Of a stretch of 13,705 nucleotides of DNA, positions 1,739-11,308 are shown one piece after another. The position numbers and the translations under genes were made by a program. The DNA lies in assembly GCA_024636405.1 (NCBI GenBank), contig JAGXHC010000094.1:1-13705 (forward strand), in the 5' to 3' direction. The notes beneath the pieces are model-generated. The model was not told the origin of the DNA and ran no database searches. It worked only from the letters and a program-made list of their open reading frames with translations. How positions within the stretch are numbered: position 1 is the first letter of the stretch; each line of letters begins with the position of its first letter. The DNA comes from Sulfitobacter sp. GTDB lineage: Bacteria > Pseudomonadota > Alphaproteobacteria > Rhodobacterales > Rhodobacteraceae.

Positions 1739-2521
1739 CTAATCCTTCTTGCGCACCTGAATCGGTGCAAAAAGAGCGGATTGCCTCATCTCCAGATGCC
1801 CTTCCTTGACCAATTCCAGCGAGGCCGCAAAGGTGGATGCAGTGGCTGACCGCCGCCGTGCCGGATCGGCCTCCCACCCTTCGGGCAGATAGCTCGTAAG
1901 CTCCGACCAATCTCTGGCATAACCGATCAGCCCGCGCATCCGCTCCAATGCCTGTTCCATCGTAAAAATTGCATCGCGGTCCATTACGAACGGGCGGAAA
2001 TCATCACGGGTGCGGATCCGGGCATACGCCTGCATCAGATCCACCAATGACGCCGTATAGCTGACCCGCCGAACACGTTGCACTTCATGTGTCTGGCCCC
2101 GCGCAAAGAAATCGCGGCCCAGTTGATTACGTGCCATCAGCCGCGCGGCCATGTCACGCATCGCTTGCAACCGCTCAAGCTGAAACGCCAGATGTGCAGC
2201 CAATTCTTCGCCCGACGGCCCCTCTTCGTTGGGATCGGGCGGCAGCAGCAGCCGCGACTTAAGGAATGCCAGCCACGCCGCCATCACCAGATAATCCGCG
2301 GCCAGTTCCAGCCGCAACGATTTGGCCTTTTGAACGAATGAAAGATATTGCCGCGCCAGCTGCAGCACCGATATTTTGCGCAGATCAACCTTTTGCGTCC
2401 GGCTCAGCGTCAGCAGCAGATCCAGCGGGCCTTCAAAACCGTCCACATCCACGATCAGCGCCTCGGCGGCCAGCCGTTCGGCAACCGAAACACGGTCTTC
2501 CTCGAATGTGGTTTCAGCCAT
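1739..2521 (-). CDS. scpA: Segregation and condensation protein A (kleisin)
   Basis: ScpA is the kleisin that bridges SMC heads in bacterial condensin and recruits ScpB. The product (260 residues from ATG 2521) has the ScpA signature F-E-G-P-L-D-L-L-L at 29-37, then T-Q-K-V-D-L-R-K-I, the helical N-terminal kleisin domain, and a C-terminal winged helix that contacts SMC. ATG 2521 is chosen because it overlaps the end of nagZ by 8 bp (ATG embedded in GCATGGC just before the nagZ TGA), a compact arrangement typical of coupled genes. A start farther upstream (2578) would add 19 non-conserved residues inside nagZ. scpB begins 4 nt after its stop, consistent with balanced synthesis of the two partners. 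Confidence 0.95.
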   Translation of the reverse strand: MAETTFEEDRVSVAERLAAEALIVDVDGFEGPLDLLLTLSRTQKVDLRKISVLQLARQYLSFVQKAKSLRLELAADYLVMAAWLAFLKSRLLLPPDPNEEGPSGEELAAHLAFQLERLQAMRDMAARLMARNQLGRDFFARGQTHEVQRVRRVSYTASLVDLMQAYARIRTRDDFRPFVMDRDAIFTMEQALERMRGLIGYARDWSELTSYLPEGWEADPARRRSATASTFAASLELVKEGHLEMRQSALFAPIQVRKKD

Positions 2522-3518
2522 GCGCAATCCCGCCCAGAAGCGCCTCAAGCTCGGCGTCCATGGCGGGAATGTCAACATCGTCCGGTGTCAGACGCGCCGT
2601 GAGGGCCCGGTCCGCACGGGTTTGGGCGGCATCGCTCATGTCGCCCGCCGCCTGCGCCACCGCGGCACGGTCTTGCAGCGCGGCATTGCAATAAAGCACC
2701 ACATCGCAGCCCGCCGCAATCGCCGCGCGGGTATTGTCCACAGGCGCGCCGCTCAACGCTTTCATTGAAATATCATCTGTCATGATCAGGTTATCGAAAC
2801 CGATTTCCTCGCGGATCAGCCGCATCACCCTGCGCGACAGCGTCGCAGGGCGGTCGTCAATCGCATCATAAACCAGATGCGCGGTCATCCCCATCGGCAG
2901 ATGGTTCAGCCGCCGAAACGGCAGAAAATCCGAATGATGCAGATCCACCGCAGAGGCTGTCACCACCGGCAGATCATGATGGCTGTCCATCGTCGCGCGA
3001 CCGTGCCCCGGAATGTGCTTCAACACCGGCAGCACGCCCCCCGCCAATAATCCTTCCGCAGCGGAACGGCCCAGCATCGCCACCCGCACAGGGTCCGCGC
3101 CATAGCAGCGGTTGCGCAGAAATTCATGGGTCGCGGGCCCGGCCAGATCAACCATCGGCGCACAGTTGCTGTCCACCCCGATCGCGCGCAACTCATCCGC
3201 GATCAGCCGGTACCGCAGATACATCGCGCGGGCCGCATCCGCCCCGGCCAACGCCACAAAATCAAGCGGCGGCAACCAATCGCGCCAGACCGGCGGGCGC
3301 AGCCGCGCCACCCGTCCGCCTTCTTGATCAATGGTAATCACAGCATCATGGCCCGCAGCTTCACGCAGCTCTGCGCACAGGGCGCGCACCTGATCCGGCG
3401 TCTCGATATTGCGCGCGAACAGGATGAAACCAAAGGGCCGAACATCGCGAAACAGCGCTTTTTCGTCCGGTGTCAGCCGCAGACCCGTCGCGTCCAGTAT
3501 CGTCGCGCCAAAGCGCAT
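2514..3518 (-). CDS. nagZ: Beta-N-acetylhexosaminidase NagZ (glycoside hydrolase family 3)
   Basis: NagZ removes N-acetylglucosamine from anhydromuropeptides during cytoplasmic peptidoglycan recycling; in some bacteria its products control beta-lactamase induction. The product (334 residues from ATG 3518) lacks a signal peptide, as expected for a cytosolic enzyme. Family motifs are clear: D-Q-E-G-G-R-V (64-70), K-H-I-P-G-H-G (167-173), D-S-H-H (178-181) containing the catalytic His loop, and M-T-D-D-I-S-M (246-252) in which Asp248 fits the nucleophile. The upstream SPOR gene ends with TGA 3520-3518, so ATG 3518 shares one base with it; GTG 3521 directly before is an alternative start and adds a single residue. 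Length is normal for the family. Confidence 0.95.
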   Translation of the reverse strand: MRFGATILDATGLRLTPDEKALFRDVRPFGFILFARNIETPDQVRALCAELREAAGHDAVITIDQEGGRVARLRPPVWRDWLPPLDFVALAGADAARAMYLRYRLIADELRAIGVDSNCAPMVDLAGPATHEFLRNRCYGADPVRVAMLGRSAAEGLLAGGVLPVLKHIPGHGRATMDSHHDLPVVTASAVDLHHSDFLPFRRLNHLPMGMTAHLVYDAIDDRPATLSRRVMRLIREEIGFDNLIMTDDISMKALSGAPVDNTRAAIAAGCDVVLYCNAALQDRAAVAQAAGDMSDAAQTRADRALTARLTPDDVDIPAMDAELEALLGGIAHG

Positions 3519-4510
3519 CACCGCGTGACCACAGGAATGCAGTCAGCCTTTTCCGCCACCAGCGCAGAACAGAAACGCCGCGCGTCCGCAATATCCTCAA
3601 ATCCCATAGCCCGCAGACGGTAGAACACCCGCCCGCCGCTCGTGGCCTTCTGCACCACCCGCTGTTTGCCCTCAAGATAGGCACCGAAACGCCCATGCAG
3701 CTTTGTCCACTGCTCGCGCGCCACCTCAGGGCTGTCGAACGCACCCAACTGCGCCAGCCGCGTGCCCTTGGGCAGGCTGTCGCCATCAACCTCATTGTCC
3801 GGCGCAGGGCTGCTTTGGGCGACGAAGGACGCCGCAAGCACATTGACAGGCTCAAGTGGCCGCTTTTTGGGCCGCAAGGACTGGCGCACGCCCGGCGCGT
3901 CCAGCACGGCAGCAGCGGCTTTGACCTCGGCGGCCTGCACCTCCTGCACAACCTCTTGAGTGACGGTGGCCACGACGTCGGCCACATCCTTGTCCAACGC
4001 GCTCATCGGGGTGACACCTTCGGTCAGCTGCGCCACCAACGATTCAACATTCCCGGCATTCAGCGCGCCCGAGACATCCAACGACGCCGCCTCTGGTTCC
4101 GCCACCTGTGGCGCCTCTGCCACCATCGCGGCAGGAATAATGCGGTCTTCGGCGGTCAGATCAATCGGCGTCGGCGCAAGTCGCAGTTCATCCGCTGGTT
4201 TGCCTGCGGTGCCTTCGGCTGCGATCACATTGACCGACAGCCCCTGATGCGCGGCAAAATCGCCGCCCGGTTTTTCAGGCCGCACCCGCATGTCGCCTTG
4301 TGCCGCGCGCACCACCGGGATGCCGCTTACGTCGCGCACGATCAGCTTGTAACCCCAGACACCAATGCCCGCGATCAATGCCAGCGACACCACTGCACCG
4401 GTGACATTCGTCAGCTTCGTCAATGCGTTCGGCGCCGTTCTTACAGTATATTCCTGGTCGGACTCGTCATCATATCCCCCCGACATCGGGGATGCTGTGA
4501 AATCTGCCAT
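3518..4510 (-). CDS. SPOR-domain membrane protein (septal peptidoglycan binding)
   Basis: Predicted inner-membrane protein with a periplasmic SPOR domain; such domains bind denuded glycan strands at division septa. The 330-residue product has a short acidic cytoplasmic N terminus with a D-D-E-S-D-Q-E stretch, one membrane segment around 38-57 (G-A-V-V-S-L-A-L-I-A-G-I-G-V-W-G), a long low-complexity Ala/Val/Glu-rich periplasmic linker, and a C-terminal SPOR domain from about 248 (R-L-A-Q-L-G-A-F to the end, with F-Y-R-L-R-A-M-G-F). ATG 4510 is favoured over TTG 4531 because GAGG lies 6 nt before it. It sits 77 bp after argS and touches nagZ, a usual alphaproteobacterial order linking it with cell-wall turnover. 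It resembles no named SPOR protein (FtsN, DamX, DedD) closely enough to use that symbol. Confidence 0.88.
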   Translation of the reverse strand: MADFTASPMSGGYDDESDQEYTVRTAPNALTKLTNVTGAVVSLALIAGIGVWGYKLIVRDVSGIPVVRAAQGDMRVRPEKPGGDFAAHQGLSVNVIAAEGTAGKPADELRLAPTPIDLTAEDRIIPAAMVAEAPQVAEPEAASLDVSGALNAGNVESLVAQLTEGVTPMSALDKDVADVVATVTQEVVQEVQAAEVKAAAAVLDAPGVRQSLRPKKRPLEPVNVLAASFVAQSSPAPDNEVDGDSLPKGTRLAQLGAFDSPEVAREQWTKLHGRFGAYLEGKQRVVQKATSGGRVFYRLRAMGFEDIADARRFCSALVAEKADCIPVVTR

Positions 4511-4587
4511 GTTTGCCTCGCTGCCCGCCAAGGTACATTGCCTCGCGGGTCTGATCGTTACTTTACCTGTCGCGGCACGTGGTGCGT

Positions 4588-6333
4588 TTATCGCATCTCC
4601 TGCGCCGGTGTGACCCCAAGAATACCAAGACCGGCTGCAATTACAATCGCCACGGCGCGGGCAAGAGCGATTTTTGCCTGACTGGTCGCGGCATCACCGT
4701 CCTGCAGGGCGCGCAGATTGTCGTCCGACCGGCCCAGATGATAGAGCCCGTGGAAGTCCGATGCCAGTTCGTAAAGATAGAACGCCACCCGGTGCGGCTC
4801 ATGCGCGCGCGCCGCCGTCTCAACCAGACGCGGCCATTCCGCCAGTTTGCGCAGAACTGCCTGCTCGGCCGTGTGGTCCAATTTGCTCAGATCCGCAGCT
4901 GCCAGCGTGGCGTCATCCACGGCCACACCCGCCTCTACCGCCTTGCGCAGCACCGATGCCACGCGGGCATGGGCATATTGCACGTAGAAAACCGGATTGT
5001 CTTTCGATTGCTCCGTCACCTTCGCAAAGTCAAAATCCAGCATCGCATCGTTCTTGCGCGTCAACATGACAAAGCGCGTCACATCCGGCCCCACCTGATC
5101 GACAACATCGCGCAGGGTCACAAAGGTGCCTGCCCGCTTTGACATCTTGAAAGGTTCGCCATTCTTGAACAGCTTGACCAATTGCGTCAGCTTGATATCC
5201 AGCGGTACGCGCCCGTCAGACAGCGCCGACACCGCCGCCTTCATGCGTTTGACATACCCGCCATGATCCGCCCCGAAGACATCAATCAGCGCATCAAATC
5301 CACGCTGCACCTTGTCATAATGATAAGCAATGTCAGGCGCGAAATAGGTCCAGTCGCCATCGGACTTCATCACCGGGCGGTCAACGTCATCGCCATGTGC
5401 GGTGGATTTGAAAAGGGTCTGCTCGCGCGGCTCCCAATCCTCGGGCGTCTTGCCCTTTGGCGGCTCCAGCACGCCTTCATAGATCAGCCCCTTGGACTTC
5501 AGGTCCGCAATCGCCGCCTCGATCTTGCCGGTCCCGTACAGCGACTTTTCGCTGTAAAACACATCCATCTCAACACCCAACGCCTTGAGATCGGCCCGGA
5601 TCAGACCCATCATCGCATCGGTTGAGAAATTGCGCACATCATCCAGCCAGACGTCCTCGCCTGTGTCGACAAAGGCGTCGCCGACCTTGGCCTTCAGCGC
5701 CTCACCGACCTCGATCAGATAATCACCGGGATAGGTGCCCTCGGGCCAGTCAACGGTCAGGTCATGCGCTTCAAGATACCGCAGATAGACCGACCGCGCC
5801 AACACATCCACCTGCGCCCCACCATCGTTGATGTAATATTCCCGCGTGACGTCAAAACCCGCGAAATCCAGCAACGACGCCAGCGCATCGCCAAAAACCG
5901 CGCCGCGTGTATGCCCGACATGCAGCGGCCCGGTGGGGTTGGCCGACACATATTCCACGTTCACCTTGCGTCCCTGTCCCAAAGCCCCGCGGCCAAACCC
6001 CGTGCCTTGTGTCAGAACCGCCCCGGCGACCTGTTGCCAAAGCCCTGCTGCCAGCCGCAAATTCAAAAAGCCCGGCCCCGCCACGTCCGCCGCCGTAATG
6101 CGCGCGTCTGCCATCAACTGCGTCGCCAGCGCTTCGGCAATATCGCGTGGCTTCATCCCCGAGGGTTTGGCCAGCACCATTGCTGCATTGGTTGCCATGT
6201 CGCCATGCGACGCATCGCGCGGCGGCTCGACCGTGACCGCGTCAAACACCAGATCTTCAGGCAACGCACCCTGGGATACCATGGTTTCAAGCGTCGCGAT
6301 CACCAGCGCGCGGATATCGGCAAATAAATTCAT
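4588..6333 (-). CDS. argS: Arginyl-tRNA synthetase
   Basis: Class I aminoacyl-tRNA synthetase charging tRNA(Arg) in the cytoplasm. The 581-residue product carries the HIGH-type motif H-V-G-H at 138-141 inside [14 protein letters not shown], the Y-Y-I-N-D-G-G-A-Q segment (166-174), and the KMSK-type loop F-K-M-S-K-R-A-G-T (395-403). The C-terminal DALR anticodon-binding domain starts near 445, and the protein ends normally. ATG 6333 has an AGGA Shine-Dalgarno 8 nt upstream. The 85-bp gap to the SDR-like gene contains a weak promoter-like pair on the minus strand (TTGACG 6384-6379, TACATG 6362-6357, 16-bp spacer), so argS may also be transcribed separately from the genes upstream; that promoter is only tentative. 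Confidence 0.97.
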
Positions 6334-8407: not shown

Positions 8408-8450
8408 ACACGGCAAGACGGATGGAAACCGACGCATCGGAGCACCTGAA

Positions 8451-8774
8451 ATGAACCTGCCACCCAAAGTCACCCCGCGCGCCTTTGCCCGGCTCGCCGA
8501 AATTGGCGCCGCTGCCGAAGGCAAGGCCCTGCGCGTTGCTGTCGATGGGGGCGGCTGTTCGGGCTTTCAGTACGAAATCGCATTGGACGCGCCGGCGGGC
8601 GACGATCTGGTTTTGGAAGGCGACGGTCAAAAAGTGGTGGTCGACGCGGTATCTTTGCCGTTTCTGGCCAATGCGGTCATTGATTTCTCCGAAGAGCTGA
8701 TTGGCGCGCGTTTTGTGATCGAAAACCCCAATGCGACCAGTTCATGCGGCTGCGGCACGTCCTTCTCGATGTAG
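8451..8774 (+). CDS. erpA: A-type iron-sulfur carrier protein (HesB/IscA/ErpA family)
   Basis: A-type carrier that receives Fe-S clusters from a scaffold and delivers them to apo-enzymes. The 107-residue product has the three invariant cysteines: Cys36 in G-G-G-C-S-G-F-Q-Y and Cys99/Cys101 in S-S-C-G-C-G-T-S-F near the C terminus. Length is typical. ATG 8451 has GGAG 8 nt upstream; a longer in-frame extension upstream runs antisense through dgt and is not credible as coding. It is divergent from dgt and is not part of an isc or suf operon here, as often seen for ErpA in alphaproteobacteria. The family is certain; the choice of ErpA over IscA or SufA rests on this context and is less sure. A stem-loop follows its stop. 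Confidence 0.92.
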   Translation: MNLPPKVTPRAFARLAEIGAAAEGKALRVAVDGGGCSGFQYEIALDAPAGDDLVLEGDGQKVVVDAVSLPFLANAVIDFSEELIGARFVIENPNATSSCGCGTSFSM

Positions 8775-8783
8775 GTGCCGTTT

Positions 8784-8809
8784 CTGATGCAGGTGCCGCG
8801 CGTCAGTTT
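8784..8809 (+). terminator. Possible stem-loop terminator after erpA
   Basis: CTGATGC (8784-8790) pairs with GCGTCAG (8800-8806), one G-T wobble, loop of 9 nt, followed by TTTC. It begins 9 nt after the erpA stop and overlaps the stop codon of the convergent gene (8805-8803). The T run is short, so termination strength is uncertain. Confidence 0.35.
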
Positions 8810-9861
8810 CCGGCGCGCGCGAACCCCTCAAAGAATCCATCGAAACACGAACTGGACCGTTCCGCTTGCACCAGAACGCCATGCGCATCCGGCCCCAGAT
8901 AGGCCAGCACATGCGCACGCATCGCACCCCAGTCGCTGCTGCGCCGTGCCCCCAGATCATACATGCACTCTGACATTGCGCGCAGCGCCCCCGGTGCGGT
9001 GCCTGCCCGCGCAAATCGCAATGACCCTTCCGGCACCGCTGCGCCAAACCCGGATCCACCCGCCACCCGCGCGGCCCATCCCGTGACCAGATATTCGTGG
9101 TAGCCATCGTGTAGCGTGCCCTGCCCGTCCGCCAGCACCGAATATCCCGCATGCGTGGCCTGCACTGCCGCGTCCCATATTTCACTTGGGCGCTGTCCGG
9201 CAAAACGCAGCGCGGTGCAGACCTCTGCCAGCAGATCCATATCGCCGTCCAGAAACGCCAGCAGCCCCGCGTATTGCAGGCTCAGATGCGCCTGCGTCCC
9301 GATTTCCGGCACACACGCACCGTAGTTCGACAGATAAAACACCAGATGTGTCAGCTCATAGGCAGCCTTCTTGTTCGGCATGGCAAATGTAGCACTTTGC
9401 GCCATGAACCGGTGCAGCCGCGCGCCCAAGGCGCCACCGTCCACGGGCCCCGCTGCACCGCGCCGTGCCAGCAACCGCCGCGCCTCGGCGCGTTGCAGAT
9501 CCGACATCTCGGACCGCGCCAGACCTTGGCGCGCCACGCGCGCGCACAGCGCAGCGCCCTTGTCACCGCGCATTCCCAGATCTTCCAGATCAAGGCAGAT
9601 CGACAACAAAAACCGGTAATACTGCGGAAAGAACCGCAAACGCTCGTCGATATTGTCGTAGAATTCGGTGAAAACCGCCAGATCGTCCGGTGCCACATCT
9701 GCACCGGTCGTCACCAGAATACCAAGCAACTCCGCGTTTTCCTTAAGCCAGAATACATCGTCTGGCGCCCTGCGCTGCGTCGCAAAGCAGCTTAGCAGGC
9801 GCGCACGCGCTGTTTGCGGGCTGCAGCGGCCTGGCAGGTTCAGAGTAACGACATTGGACAT
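8803..9861 (-). CDS. Uncharacterised 352-aa partner protein of the repeat peptide
   Basis: I do not recognise an established enzyme family. The 352-residue product has no signal peptide or membrane segment and looks mostly alpha-helical. Visible landmarks are F-W-L-K-E-N-A-E-L-L (37-46), F-F-P-Q-Y-Y-R-F-L-L (77-86) followed by C-L-D-L-E-D-L-G-M, the motif Y-E-L-T-H-L-V-F-Y-L-S-N-Y-G (168-181) and H-D-G-Y-H-E-Y (251-257). The last two place His172, His251, His255 and nearby Glu residues in conspicuous aromatic settings, which could mean a metal site, but this is inference. ATG 9861 has AAGGA 9 nt upstream. It follows the 80-aa repeat-peptide gene on the same strand after 70 bp containing a 9-bp hairpin, so both are probably co-transcribed and functionally paired, for example as modifier, binder or exporter adaptor of the peptide. 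It converges on erpA. Confidence 0.85.
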   Translation of the reverse strand: MSNVVTLNLPGRCSPQTARARLLSCFATQRRAPDDVFWLKENAELLGILVTTGADVAPDDLAVFTEFYDNIDERLRFFPQYYRFLLSICLDLEDLGMRGDKGAALCARVARQGLARSEMSDLQRAEARRLLARRGAAGPVDGGALGARLHRFMAQSATFAMPNKKAAYELTHLVFYLSNYGACVPEIGTQAHLSLQYAGLLAFLDGDMDLLAEVCTALRFAGQRPSEIWDAAVQATHAGYSVLADGQGTLHDGYHEYLVTGWAARVAGGSGFGAAVPEGSLRFARAGTAPGALRAMSECMYDLGARRSSDWGAMRAHVLAYLGPDAHGVLVQAERSSSCFDGFFEGFARAGN

Positions 9862-9931: not shown

Positions 9932-10174
9932 TCAGCAGCTGGTGGTGAACAGCTCTACCTTGTCGCCCGCGACGCTGTCGCTTTGCGCCGTGACGCAGCT
10001 GGTTGTGAACATCTCTACGCCGGCACCACTGTGCGTGTCAGTCACCGCCGCGACGGAGCCAGAGGTGAAAAGCGCTGTGCCATTCCCCTCGAAGATCGAT
10101 GTCTCAGTTGGCGCGGCAGACTGGGTGATGGGAGTTTGGGCGGCGGAGGTCTGGATTTGTGCGCGTGCTGTCAT
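9932..10174 (-). CDS. Repeat peptide, putative RiPP-type precursor (leader + 3 x 20-aa repeats)
   Basis: An 80-residue Ser/Thr/Ala-rich peptide without signal sequence. After a 20-residue N-terminal part (starting M-T-A-R-A-Q-I-Q-T-S) come three repeats of exactly 20 residues: 21-40 ends T-A-L-F-T-S-G-S, 41-60 ends V-E-M-F-T-T-S-C, and 61-80 ends V-E-L-F-T-T-S-C, where the last Cys is the C terminus. Repeats 2 and 3 share G-x-x-V-E-[LM]-F-T-T-S-C. At DNA level the period is 60 bp (aligned positions 9935, 9995, 10055). ATG 10174 has AAGGA 8 nt upstream. A leader plus tandem Cys/Ser/Thr-ending cores next to a dedicated partner gene is the architecture of multi-core RiPP precursors, but no known modifying enzyme or protease is adjacent. 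It could instead be a metal-binding or structural repeat peptide. The gene's reality is well supported; its function is unknown. Confidence 0.85.
   Translation of the reverse strand: MTARAQIQTSAAQTPITQSAAPTETSIFEGNGTALFTSGSVAAVTDTHSGAGVEMFTTSCVTAQSDSVAGDKVELFTTSC
9935..10114 (-). repeat. Three in-frame 60-bp tandem repeats within the repeat-peptide gene
   Basis: Units 9935-9994, 9995-10054 and 10055-10114. The first 24 bp of the two C-terminal units (9935-9958 and 9995-10018), encoding the conserved E-[LM]-F-T-T-S-C end, differ at only two positions, whereas the rest of each unit is much more diverged. The N-terminal unit (10055-10114) is the most diverged and has lost the Cys codon. Confidence 0.8.
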
Positions 10175-10525: not shown

Positions 10526-11308
10526 ATGAAAATTGCCACCTTCAATATCAACGGGATCAAGGCCCGCGCCGAAGCGCTGCCCGCCTGGCTGGACGCAACT
10601 GCCCCCGATGTCGTGCTGCTGCAAGAGATCAAATCAGTGGACGAAGGTTTCCCCGGCGCGCTGTTCGAGGACCGCGGCTATAACGTCGAATCTCACGGCC
10701 AGAAATCCTTTAACGGTGTGGCGATCCTGTCAAAGTACCCGCTGGAGGATGTCACCCGCGGCCTGCCCGGTGATGACACCGATGAACAGGCACGCTGGAT
10801 AGAAGCAACGGTCGTCGGGGACCGCGAGGCACTTCGGATTTGCGGGCTTTACCTGCCCAACGGAAACCCTGCGCCGGGTCCGAAATTCGATTACAAACTG
10901 GGGTGGATGGAGCGCCTGAAAACCCGCGCCGAAGCATTGTTGGCGCAAGAAGTGCCGTTCCTGATGGCGGGCGACTATAATATCATCCCGCAGGCCGAAG
11001 ACGCCGCCAACCCGGACGCCTGGCGCGAAGACGCTCTGTTCCGCCCCGAAGCCCGCGCAGCATGGCGCAAAATCATCAACCTGGCTTTGACGGACGCCTT
11101 CCGCGCCCGCGTGCAAGGACCAGGGCATTATTCATTCTGGGATTATCAGGCCGGTGCGTGGAATCGCAACATGGGCATCCGCATCGATCATTTCCTGCTG
11201 TCGCCAACCTGCGCCGACATGCTGCGCGACGTCGGGATCGACAAGGACGTGCGCGCCGGTGAAAAGCCGTCGGATCATGTGCCGGTCTGGGTTGATCTGG
11301 ATGTCTGA
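10526..11308 (+). CDS. xthA: Exodeoxyribonuclease III (AP endonuclease)
   Basis: Mg-dependent AP endonuclease / 3'-5' exonuclease of base-excision repair. The 260-residue product shows the full ExoIII/APE1-type active site: Asn7 in F-N-I-N-G-I-K-A-R, Glu34 in L-L-Q-E-I-K, Tyr109 in G-L-Y-L-P-N-G, Asp150 and Asn152 in A-G-D-Y-N-I-I-P, Asp221 in R-I-D-H-F, and His251 in P-S-D-H-V-P-V. ATG 10526 gives the normal family N terminus (M-K-I-A-T-F-N-I-N-G), although its ribosome site is weak; the frame stays open upstream to 10406 and ATG 10499 is a possible longer start with no homology support. It ends 33 bp from the convergent HNH gene, with a stem-loop in between. Confidence 0.95.
   Translation: MKIATFNINGIKARAEALPAWLDATAPDVVLLQEIKSVDEGFPGALFEDRGYNVESHGQKSFNGVAILSKYPLEDVTRGLPGDDTDEQARWIEATVVGDREALRICGLYLPNGNPAPGPKFDYKLGWMERLKTRAEALLAQEVPFLMAGDYNIIPQAEDAANPDAWREDALFRPEARAAWRKIINLALTDAFRARVQGPGHYSFWDYQAGAWNRNMGIRIDHFLLSPTCADMLRDVGIDKDVRAGEKPSDHVPVWVDLDV

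Follow-up and report, generated by a model that had tools for sequence, protein, structure and literature searches.

An 80-aa reading frame in Sulfitobacter sp. raises two questions, namely whether a short peptide built from repeats is a genuine precursor of a modified product, and which gene would carry out the modification. The window (the whole stretch of 13,705 nucleotides that was analysed) contains this frame 70 nt upstream of a gene for a 352-aa protein of the Pfam family DUF6902. The features of the locus are as follows.

9932..10174, minus strand: candidate multi-core precursor peptide gene, 80 aa; an open reading frame to which the best 80 loci have a counterpart in the same position
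10115..10174, minus strand: N-terminal leader-like segment, residues 1-20, MTARAQ... (MTAL.. in relatives), from alignment; putative leader role
10055..10114, minus strand: repeat unit 1, core FTSGS at 10055-10069
9995..10054, minus strand: repeat unit 2, core FTTSC at 9995-10009
9935..9994, minus strand: repeat unit 3, core FTTSC at 9935-9949; the protein ends with its last residue
9886..9911, minus strand: intergenic hairpin between the precursor and enzyme genes, 11-bp stem, GAGA loop, z about -2.0
8803..9861, minus strand: DUF6902 protein, 352 aa, proposed maturase/epimerase (Pfam match, all-alpha model, invariant residues)
8445..8774, plus strand: HesB/ErpA-like Fe-S protein gene, conserved convergent neighbour outside the system; family in 58/80 loci
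10529..11308, plus strand: endonuclease/exonuclease/phosphatase-family (exo-III-like) gene, conserved divergent neighbour outside the system; family in 76/80 loci

The repeat gene and its partner

There is a real frame at 9932-10174, in which three units of 20 residues follow a 20-residue leader-like part. It starts with ATG, and an AAGGA ribosome-site-like stretch can be read just 5' of it. The units occupy residues 21-40 (APTETSIFEGNGTALFTSGS), 41-60 (VAAVTDTHSGAGVEMFTTSC) and 61-80 (VTAQSDSVAGDKVELFTTSC). A sequence-only reading had described them as three exact 20-residue repeats ending in FTTSC. The exact length stands, but the sequences are identical at 5/20, 4/20 and 11/20 positions in pairwise comparison, so that the units have a common length and not a common sequence, and unit 1 ends in FTSGS. 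The same reading correctly noted that the last two units end in GxxVE[ML]FTTSC with the final Cys at the C terminus, and the layout of a leader-like part followed by repeated cores, which it had also proposed, recurs in relatives. When the same residues were shuffled, none of 20,000 shuffles matched the window repeat in a fixed register, and none of 2,000 did so with a period of 12-26 and the offset left free.

The peptide gene is tightly linked to its neighbour. A genome scan gave 350 enzyme relatives; in each of the 80 best loci a same-strand peptide frame lies upstream of the DUF6902 gene, with a degenerate array in L014. The gap between the two genes is 42-118 nt in 79/80 loci and 342 nt in L068. 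Twenty further, weaker loci were taken from the 19 weakest over-cut-off genes of the order-wide list and the broken gene of G524 (G551, below cut-off, was left out), and each of them also carries a peptide frame; the array of L123 is degenerate, with two unlike units, and that of L125 is decayed. The precursors of L115 and L124 are the same as those of L006 and L057, and the precursor of L110 was found by reading frames alone. The suggestion that the peptide forms a two-gene unit with the 352-aa neighbour is therefore borne out by the 80/80 best loci and the 20/20 further ones. In L125 (G524:C14:82000-90000), DUF6902 lies in several pieces behind a short upstream precursor (66 aa), and the two genes seem to be decaying together.

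Among 292 Rhodobacterales genomes sampled, a DUF6902 match occurs in 80, over the cut-off in 79. A single query, the 203-aa precursor of a relative, was searched with an E threshold of 1e-4 and no more than 10 scored candidates for each genome. Matches occurred in 57 genomes, all within the 80 with DUF6902. The query matched 0/212 Rhodobacterales genomes without DUF6902, a result of limited power because it also missed 23 of the 80 genomes that have the gene. DUF6902 was absent from the 72,556 plasmid records searched.

The precursor-DUF6902 pair occupies a core-genome slot. Besides the two conserved neighbours listed above, an HD-domain (dGTPase-like) gene is present in 74/80 loci and argS in 59/80, with identities taken from the window copies. 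At 2514-6333 of the window, a SPOR-domain gene overlaps a glycosyl-hydrolase-3 (nagZ-like) gene behind argS; many roseobacter loci have this gene order too, along with the HesB-like and HD-domain genes. An EamA-type gene follows DUF6902 on the same strand in 39/80 loci (the one member scanned with Pfam is EamA). Relative to the DUF6902 stop, its start overlaps by 4 nt in 28 of these loci, is in contact in 1, is called earlier in 9 and lies 94 nt on in 1. The window has no EamA-type transporter beside the pair. Seven loci (L016, L031, L037, L056, L060, L067 and L069) carry a second gene of the EamA-type cluster upstream on the opposite strand, and their cores are all FTSSL or FTSSM. PADLOC anti-phage defence models gave no match at E 0.01 for the peptide, the DUF6902 protein or one DUF6895 protein.

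The gap between the two genes tends to fold. The mean z was -1.06, with values below -2 in 23/79 gaps, versus -0.09 and 4/77 for control stretches before the precursor; L068, with its 342-nt gap, was left out of this comparison. Such a hairpin could hold precursor output above enzyme output.

Repeat arrays and selection on the cores

Across 79 loci and the window (L014 apart), precursors contain 3 to 12 units with a spacing of mostly 19-21, or 8 for compact copies; divergent loci go down to two units. Four false units, of which L014 had two and L016 and L064 a single one apiece, were dropped, and L004, which shows only its last repeats at a contig end (gap 68 nt), was excluded from the unit counts. 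Most units fit G-[DE]-x-[VT]-x-[ML]-F and continue with four residues that vary. The precursor ends exactly on the core pentamer in 67/80 cases, and a tail of 1-12 residues is found in 13/80. Core pentamers differ by species and include FSSGS, FTSGS, FTTSC, FTSSL, FTTSM, FTSGL, FTTGL, FSTSC and FTTSV, as well as FVTSC, FVSGL, FMQSV, FCSAS, IMSAS, FTSWS, among others; the cores of remoter members are VSSTC, MTSVA, PTSN, STSSF or AQSFSAP. A comparison of homologues had been proposed in the expectation that repeat number varies around an invariant FTTSC end. Repeat number does vary, but the end changes with the species, and a conserved C-terminal Cys is not found, as many precursors end in S, L, M, V or A or carry a tail. 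Cores are alike at +1 to +4 throughout the precursor in 60/79 cases. Two core types occur in 19/79, including the window, and a core of xSGS type often comes first. Uniform cores inside 60/79 precursors that differ between species are the stronger argument for a multi-copy product.

This contrast was quantified with units picked solely by G.....F (448 units; 79/80 precursors with three or more). Identity at core positions +1 to +4 was 0.85-0.94 within a precursor versus 0.24-0.51 between precursors, while spacer columns gave 0.13-0.29 versus 0.09-0.27. At the codon level, 78 of 79 precursors were compared, one being filtered out (because of an N, or because it was not located). When the repeats within a precursor were set against each other, pN was 0.132 and pS 0.583 for core codons, with pN below pS in 76/78 precursors; for spacer codons the values were 0.579 and 0.680, with pN below pS in 63/78. 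Purifying selection acts on the core codons and hardly on the spacers, and such a constraint is to be expected of RiPP cores, though it does not formally define them. The pS between repeats indicates that the copies are old by their synonymous sites, while the cores stay alike.

It is conceivable that such a frame is a neutral tandem-repeat artefact or is untranslated, and its variable copy number and low-complexity composition would fit that idea. The core pN far below pS, the 42-118 nt spacing from DUF6902 and the presence of the frame at every locus examined largely contradict it, and we regard it as very improbable. The peptide is established as selected, repeat-encoded and tightly paired with DUF6902.

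Cores also follow the descent of the enzyme, since nine core types, when placed on a tree of 81 enzyme rows, require 14 changes versus 42.3 in shuffles. Seventeen of the 81 rows belong to no core group; the label of L014 comes from a false unit, that of L015 is a tie and that of L002 is a 3-of-5 majority. The sister rows L019 (FSSGS six times) and L034 (FTSGS seven times), with end branches of about 0.02, illustrate how a whole array may switch. In four of their units the spacers match, or nearly so, and Ser stands in every L019 copy where L034 has Thr. The last of these units differs by one base, TTC TCT TCG GGC AGC in L019 and TTC ACT TCG GGC AGC in L034, and the Thr codon in the other three matched L034 units is ACG. 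The switch thus needs at least two separate changes, for which a single gene-conversion event is insufficient. Selection for like copies would be the simplest reason for it.

DUF6902 as a candidate modifying enzyme

The 352-aa protein matches Pfam DUF6902 (PF21843) with 469.2 bits (cut-off 27, E 9.6e-141) and DUF6895 (PF21836) with 80 bits (cut-off 23.8, E 2.5e-22). There is no sharp border between the two families, and the G483 member of DUF6902 reaches E 5.7e-44 against DUF6895. A protein search returned 1457 relatives at E 1e-5 among 7998 candidates scored, and a PDB sequence search gave no credible relative of the window protein. Six residues, Y168, H172, G181, D209, E213 and H255, are identical in 16/16 DUF6902 and 12/12 DUF6895 aligned rows and are invariant in all 30 DUF6902 rows of the alignment. 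The predicted model of the window protein (mean pLDDT 92.7) is all-alpha and resembles a toroid by its best, weak fold matches. In this model, the six residues lie in or beside helices 164-177, 208-220 and 254-266, which alternate and would line the inside of the toroid. The Y/H/G/D/E/H set may form a putative active site, and the His/Asp/Glu/His invariance is suggestive of catalysis.

The sequence-only reading had seen no RiPP enzyme next to the peptide. This view is not supported, because the neighbour belongs to the DUF6895/DUF6902 superfamily, in which the title of one study reports a lasso-peptide epimerase of the DUF6895 family (Shi et al., ACS Catal 2026, doi 10.1021/acscatal.5c08590, cited in PMC13352647). 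DUF6902 is homologous to the family named in that title and keeps the residues that are invariant in the 28 aligned rows. It differs from a lasso system in its setting, as the 15 window proteins scanned with Pfam include no lasso leader protease or cyclase. The same scan found no enzyme of the lanthipeptide, YcaO or radical-SAM classes. A further difference is that the candidate substrate of DUF6902 is a linear multi-repeat peptide.

A comparison can also be made with MslH, which is described as a metal-dependent peptide epimerase of the lasso peptide MS-271 with a calcineurin-like fold and two His/Asp pairs, acting on one C-terminal Trp (PMC10406935). The two His and two acidic residues of DUF6902 are a plausible parallel to these pairs; the folds differ, MslH being calcineurin-like and DUF6902 modelled as an all-alpha toroid.

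Small peptide genes also accompany DUF6895. Twelve DUF6895 loci, mostly from other groups, were examined (the below-cut-off matches G081 and G093 were omitted), and in eight a small peptide frame lies directly 5' of the DUF6895 gene. These are found in Pseudomonadota (L094, L095, L096), Kitasatospora (L098), Pseudalkalibacillus (L099), Streptomyces (L100, L101) and Gemmatirosa (L105), and the frames of L094-L096 and L105 are unannotated. No clear repeat peptide stands directly upstream of the DUF6895 gene in L097, L102, L103 or L104. By eye, several DUF6895 peptides have a common leader-like stretch, LxxSGIIDxxxTLxxL, to which the DUF6902 leaders are unlike. Aromatic ends such as GPWYxY occur in some of them, two repeats are present in L095 and L096, and five of these peptides scanned with Pfam gave no family match. 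In L094 (3119-9576, Pseudomonadota), two small peptide frames and the DUF6895 gene lie together with genes for a papain-like cysteine protease and an MFS transporter, which has the look of a more complete biosynthetic cluster akin to the DUF6902 pair. A Streptomyces fungicidicus plasmid (L102) has two overlapping tandem DUF6895-like genes (3718-4689 and 4686-5603) behind a 62-aa frame and another gene, with a P450 gene adjoining, possibly a distinct peptide cluster.

The encoded precursor stands beside DUF6902; that DUF6902 modifies the peptide we infer from its superfamily membership and conserved residues. A precursor with a dedicated modifying enzyme is in our view likely. The whole reading, a multi-core RiPP precursor with DUF6902 as its dedicated maturase and probably an epimerase, is drawn from sequence comparison and is held with somewhat more confidence than doubt. 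The 80-aa gene would encode a multi-core precursor of a ribosomally made and modified peptide (RiPP). DUF6902 would read the GxxVxMF element of each repeat and act on the core that follows, in the window FTSGS once and FTTSC twice. The chemistry would be an epimerisation that turns one core residue from L to D through two-base acid/base catalysis, after the title of the DUF6895 study. Host proteases would then free one short product per repeat, and in roughly half of the relatives an EamA-type transporter may export it. Among the possible chemistries, epimerisation has the best support since it is the sole one found in print for the superfamily, by one title, and we put it forward tentatively, at a little under an even chance. 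Release of the cores as separate short peptides is more doubtful still. Because epimerisation leaves the mass unchanged, LC-MS for a mass shift, which had been proposed as a check, would miss it.

DUF6902 may instead modify the repeats by other chemistry, such as dehydration, cyclisation or cleavage at the Ser/Thr/Cys residues of the core, and the product would still be a RiPP. Core hydroxyls are indeed common (T/S at +1 in 94% and at +2 in 99% of 459 full-length units), the divergent cores VSSTC, MTSVA, PTSN and STSSF retain Ser/Thr, and the toroid fold is also that of cyclases and lyases, at fold level and by weak matches. Cores such as FMQSV and IMSAS are without this pair of hydroxyls, however, and epimerisation is what the title cited above reports. 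We consider other chemistry rather unlikely.

Helical toroids and solenoids often bind peptides. The peptide could accordingly be an unmodified multivalent scaffold, with repeats that serve as linear motifs for binding DUF6902 or another partner and no product released. The weak fold matches to helical toroids and solenoids would suit such a role, as would the 28 recurrent neighbour clusters, among which no protease is apparent by eye. A scaffold does not readily explain cores that are uniform yet switch, an exact C terminus in 67/80 precursors, the His/Asp/Glu/His invariance suggestive of catalysis, or the peptide frames before DUF6895 genes in other groups, and it appears improbable. A modified multi-core precursor is the reading that we retain.

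Known systems and meaning for the roseobacters

Multi-core RiPP precursors are known from dikaritins/ustiloxins, cyanobactins and repeat graspetides, in which near-identical cores are separated by variable spacers. The roseobacter peptides resemble them in both respects and differ in having another enzyme, two genes only and a fixed chromosomal slot in Rhodobacterales. Another parallel is with the alpha-factor-like pheromone precursors of yeast, each of which contains many identical short peptides that are uniform within a precursor and change between species; the roseobacter pair differs in that no secretion signal or processing protease was identified for it. The open-licence PMC literature contained no paper naming DUF6902, none for any of five core strings searched, and no report of a repeat-bearing RiPP precursor peptide for Rhodobacteraceae. 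The proposal of an undescribed two-gene peptide system agrees with this search, which found no description of one. RiPPs and multi-core precursors are already known; for this enzyme family, this layout of the substrate and this group of hosts, that literature seems to contain no description.

About a quarter of the sampled Rhodobacterales genomes (80/292) carry DUF6902. Since cores are alike within a precursor and different between species, the specificity of the enzyme is directly testable by core swaps between relatives. A more speculative and rather improbable extension is that these are roseobacter peptide signals: each precursor would yield several identical four- to six-residue peptides with a D-residue set by DUF6902, exported by EamA-type transporters in about half of the species, the arrays would switch in the manner of pherotypes, and the pentamer would serve as a kin-specific word. 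DUF6895/DUF6902 proteins with repeat or GPWYxY-type peptides would then form a RiPP class of their own across Pseudomonadota, Actinomycetota, Bacillota and Gemmatimonadota. If the multi-core reading is true, the pair would be a minimal means, with two genes, of making many identical modified peptides from each precursor, and would add a branch with natural substrate libraries to an epimerase superfamily recently reported by title. It would also supply a candidate signal or effector peptide for an important group of marine bacteria.
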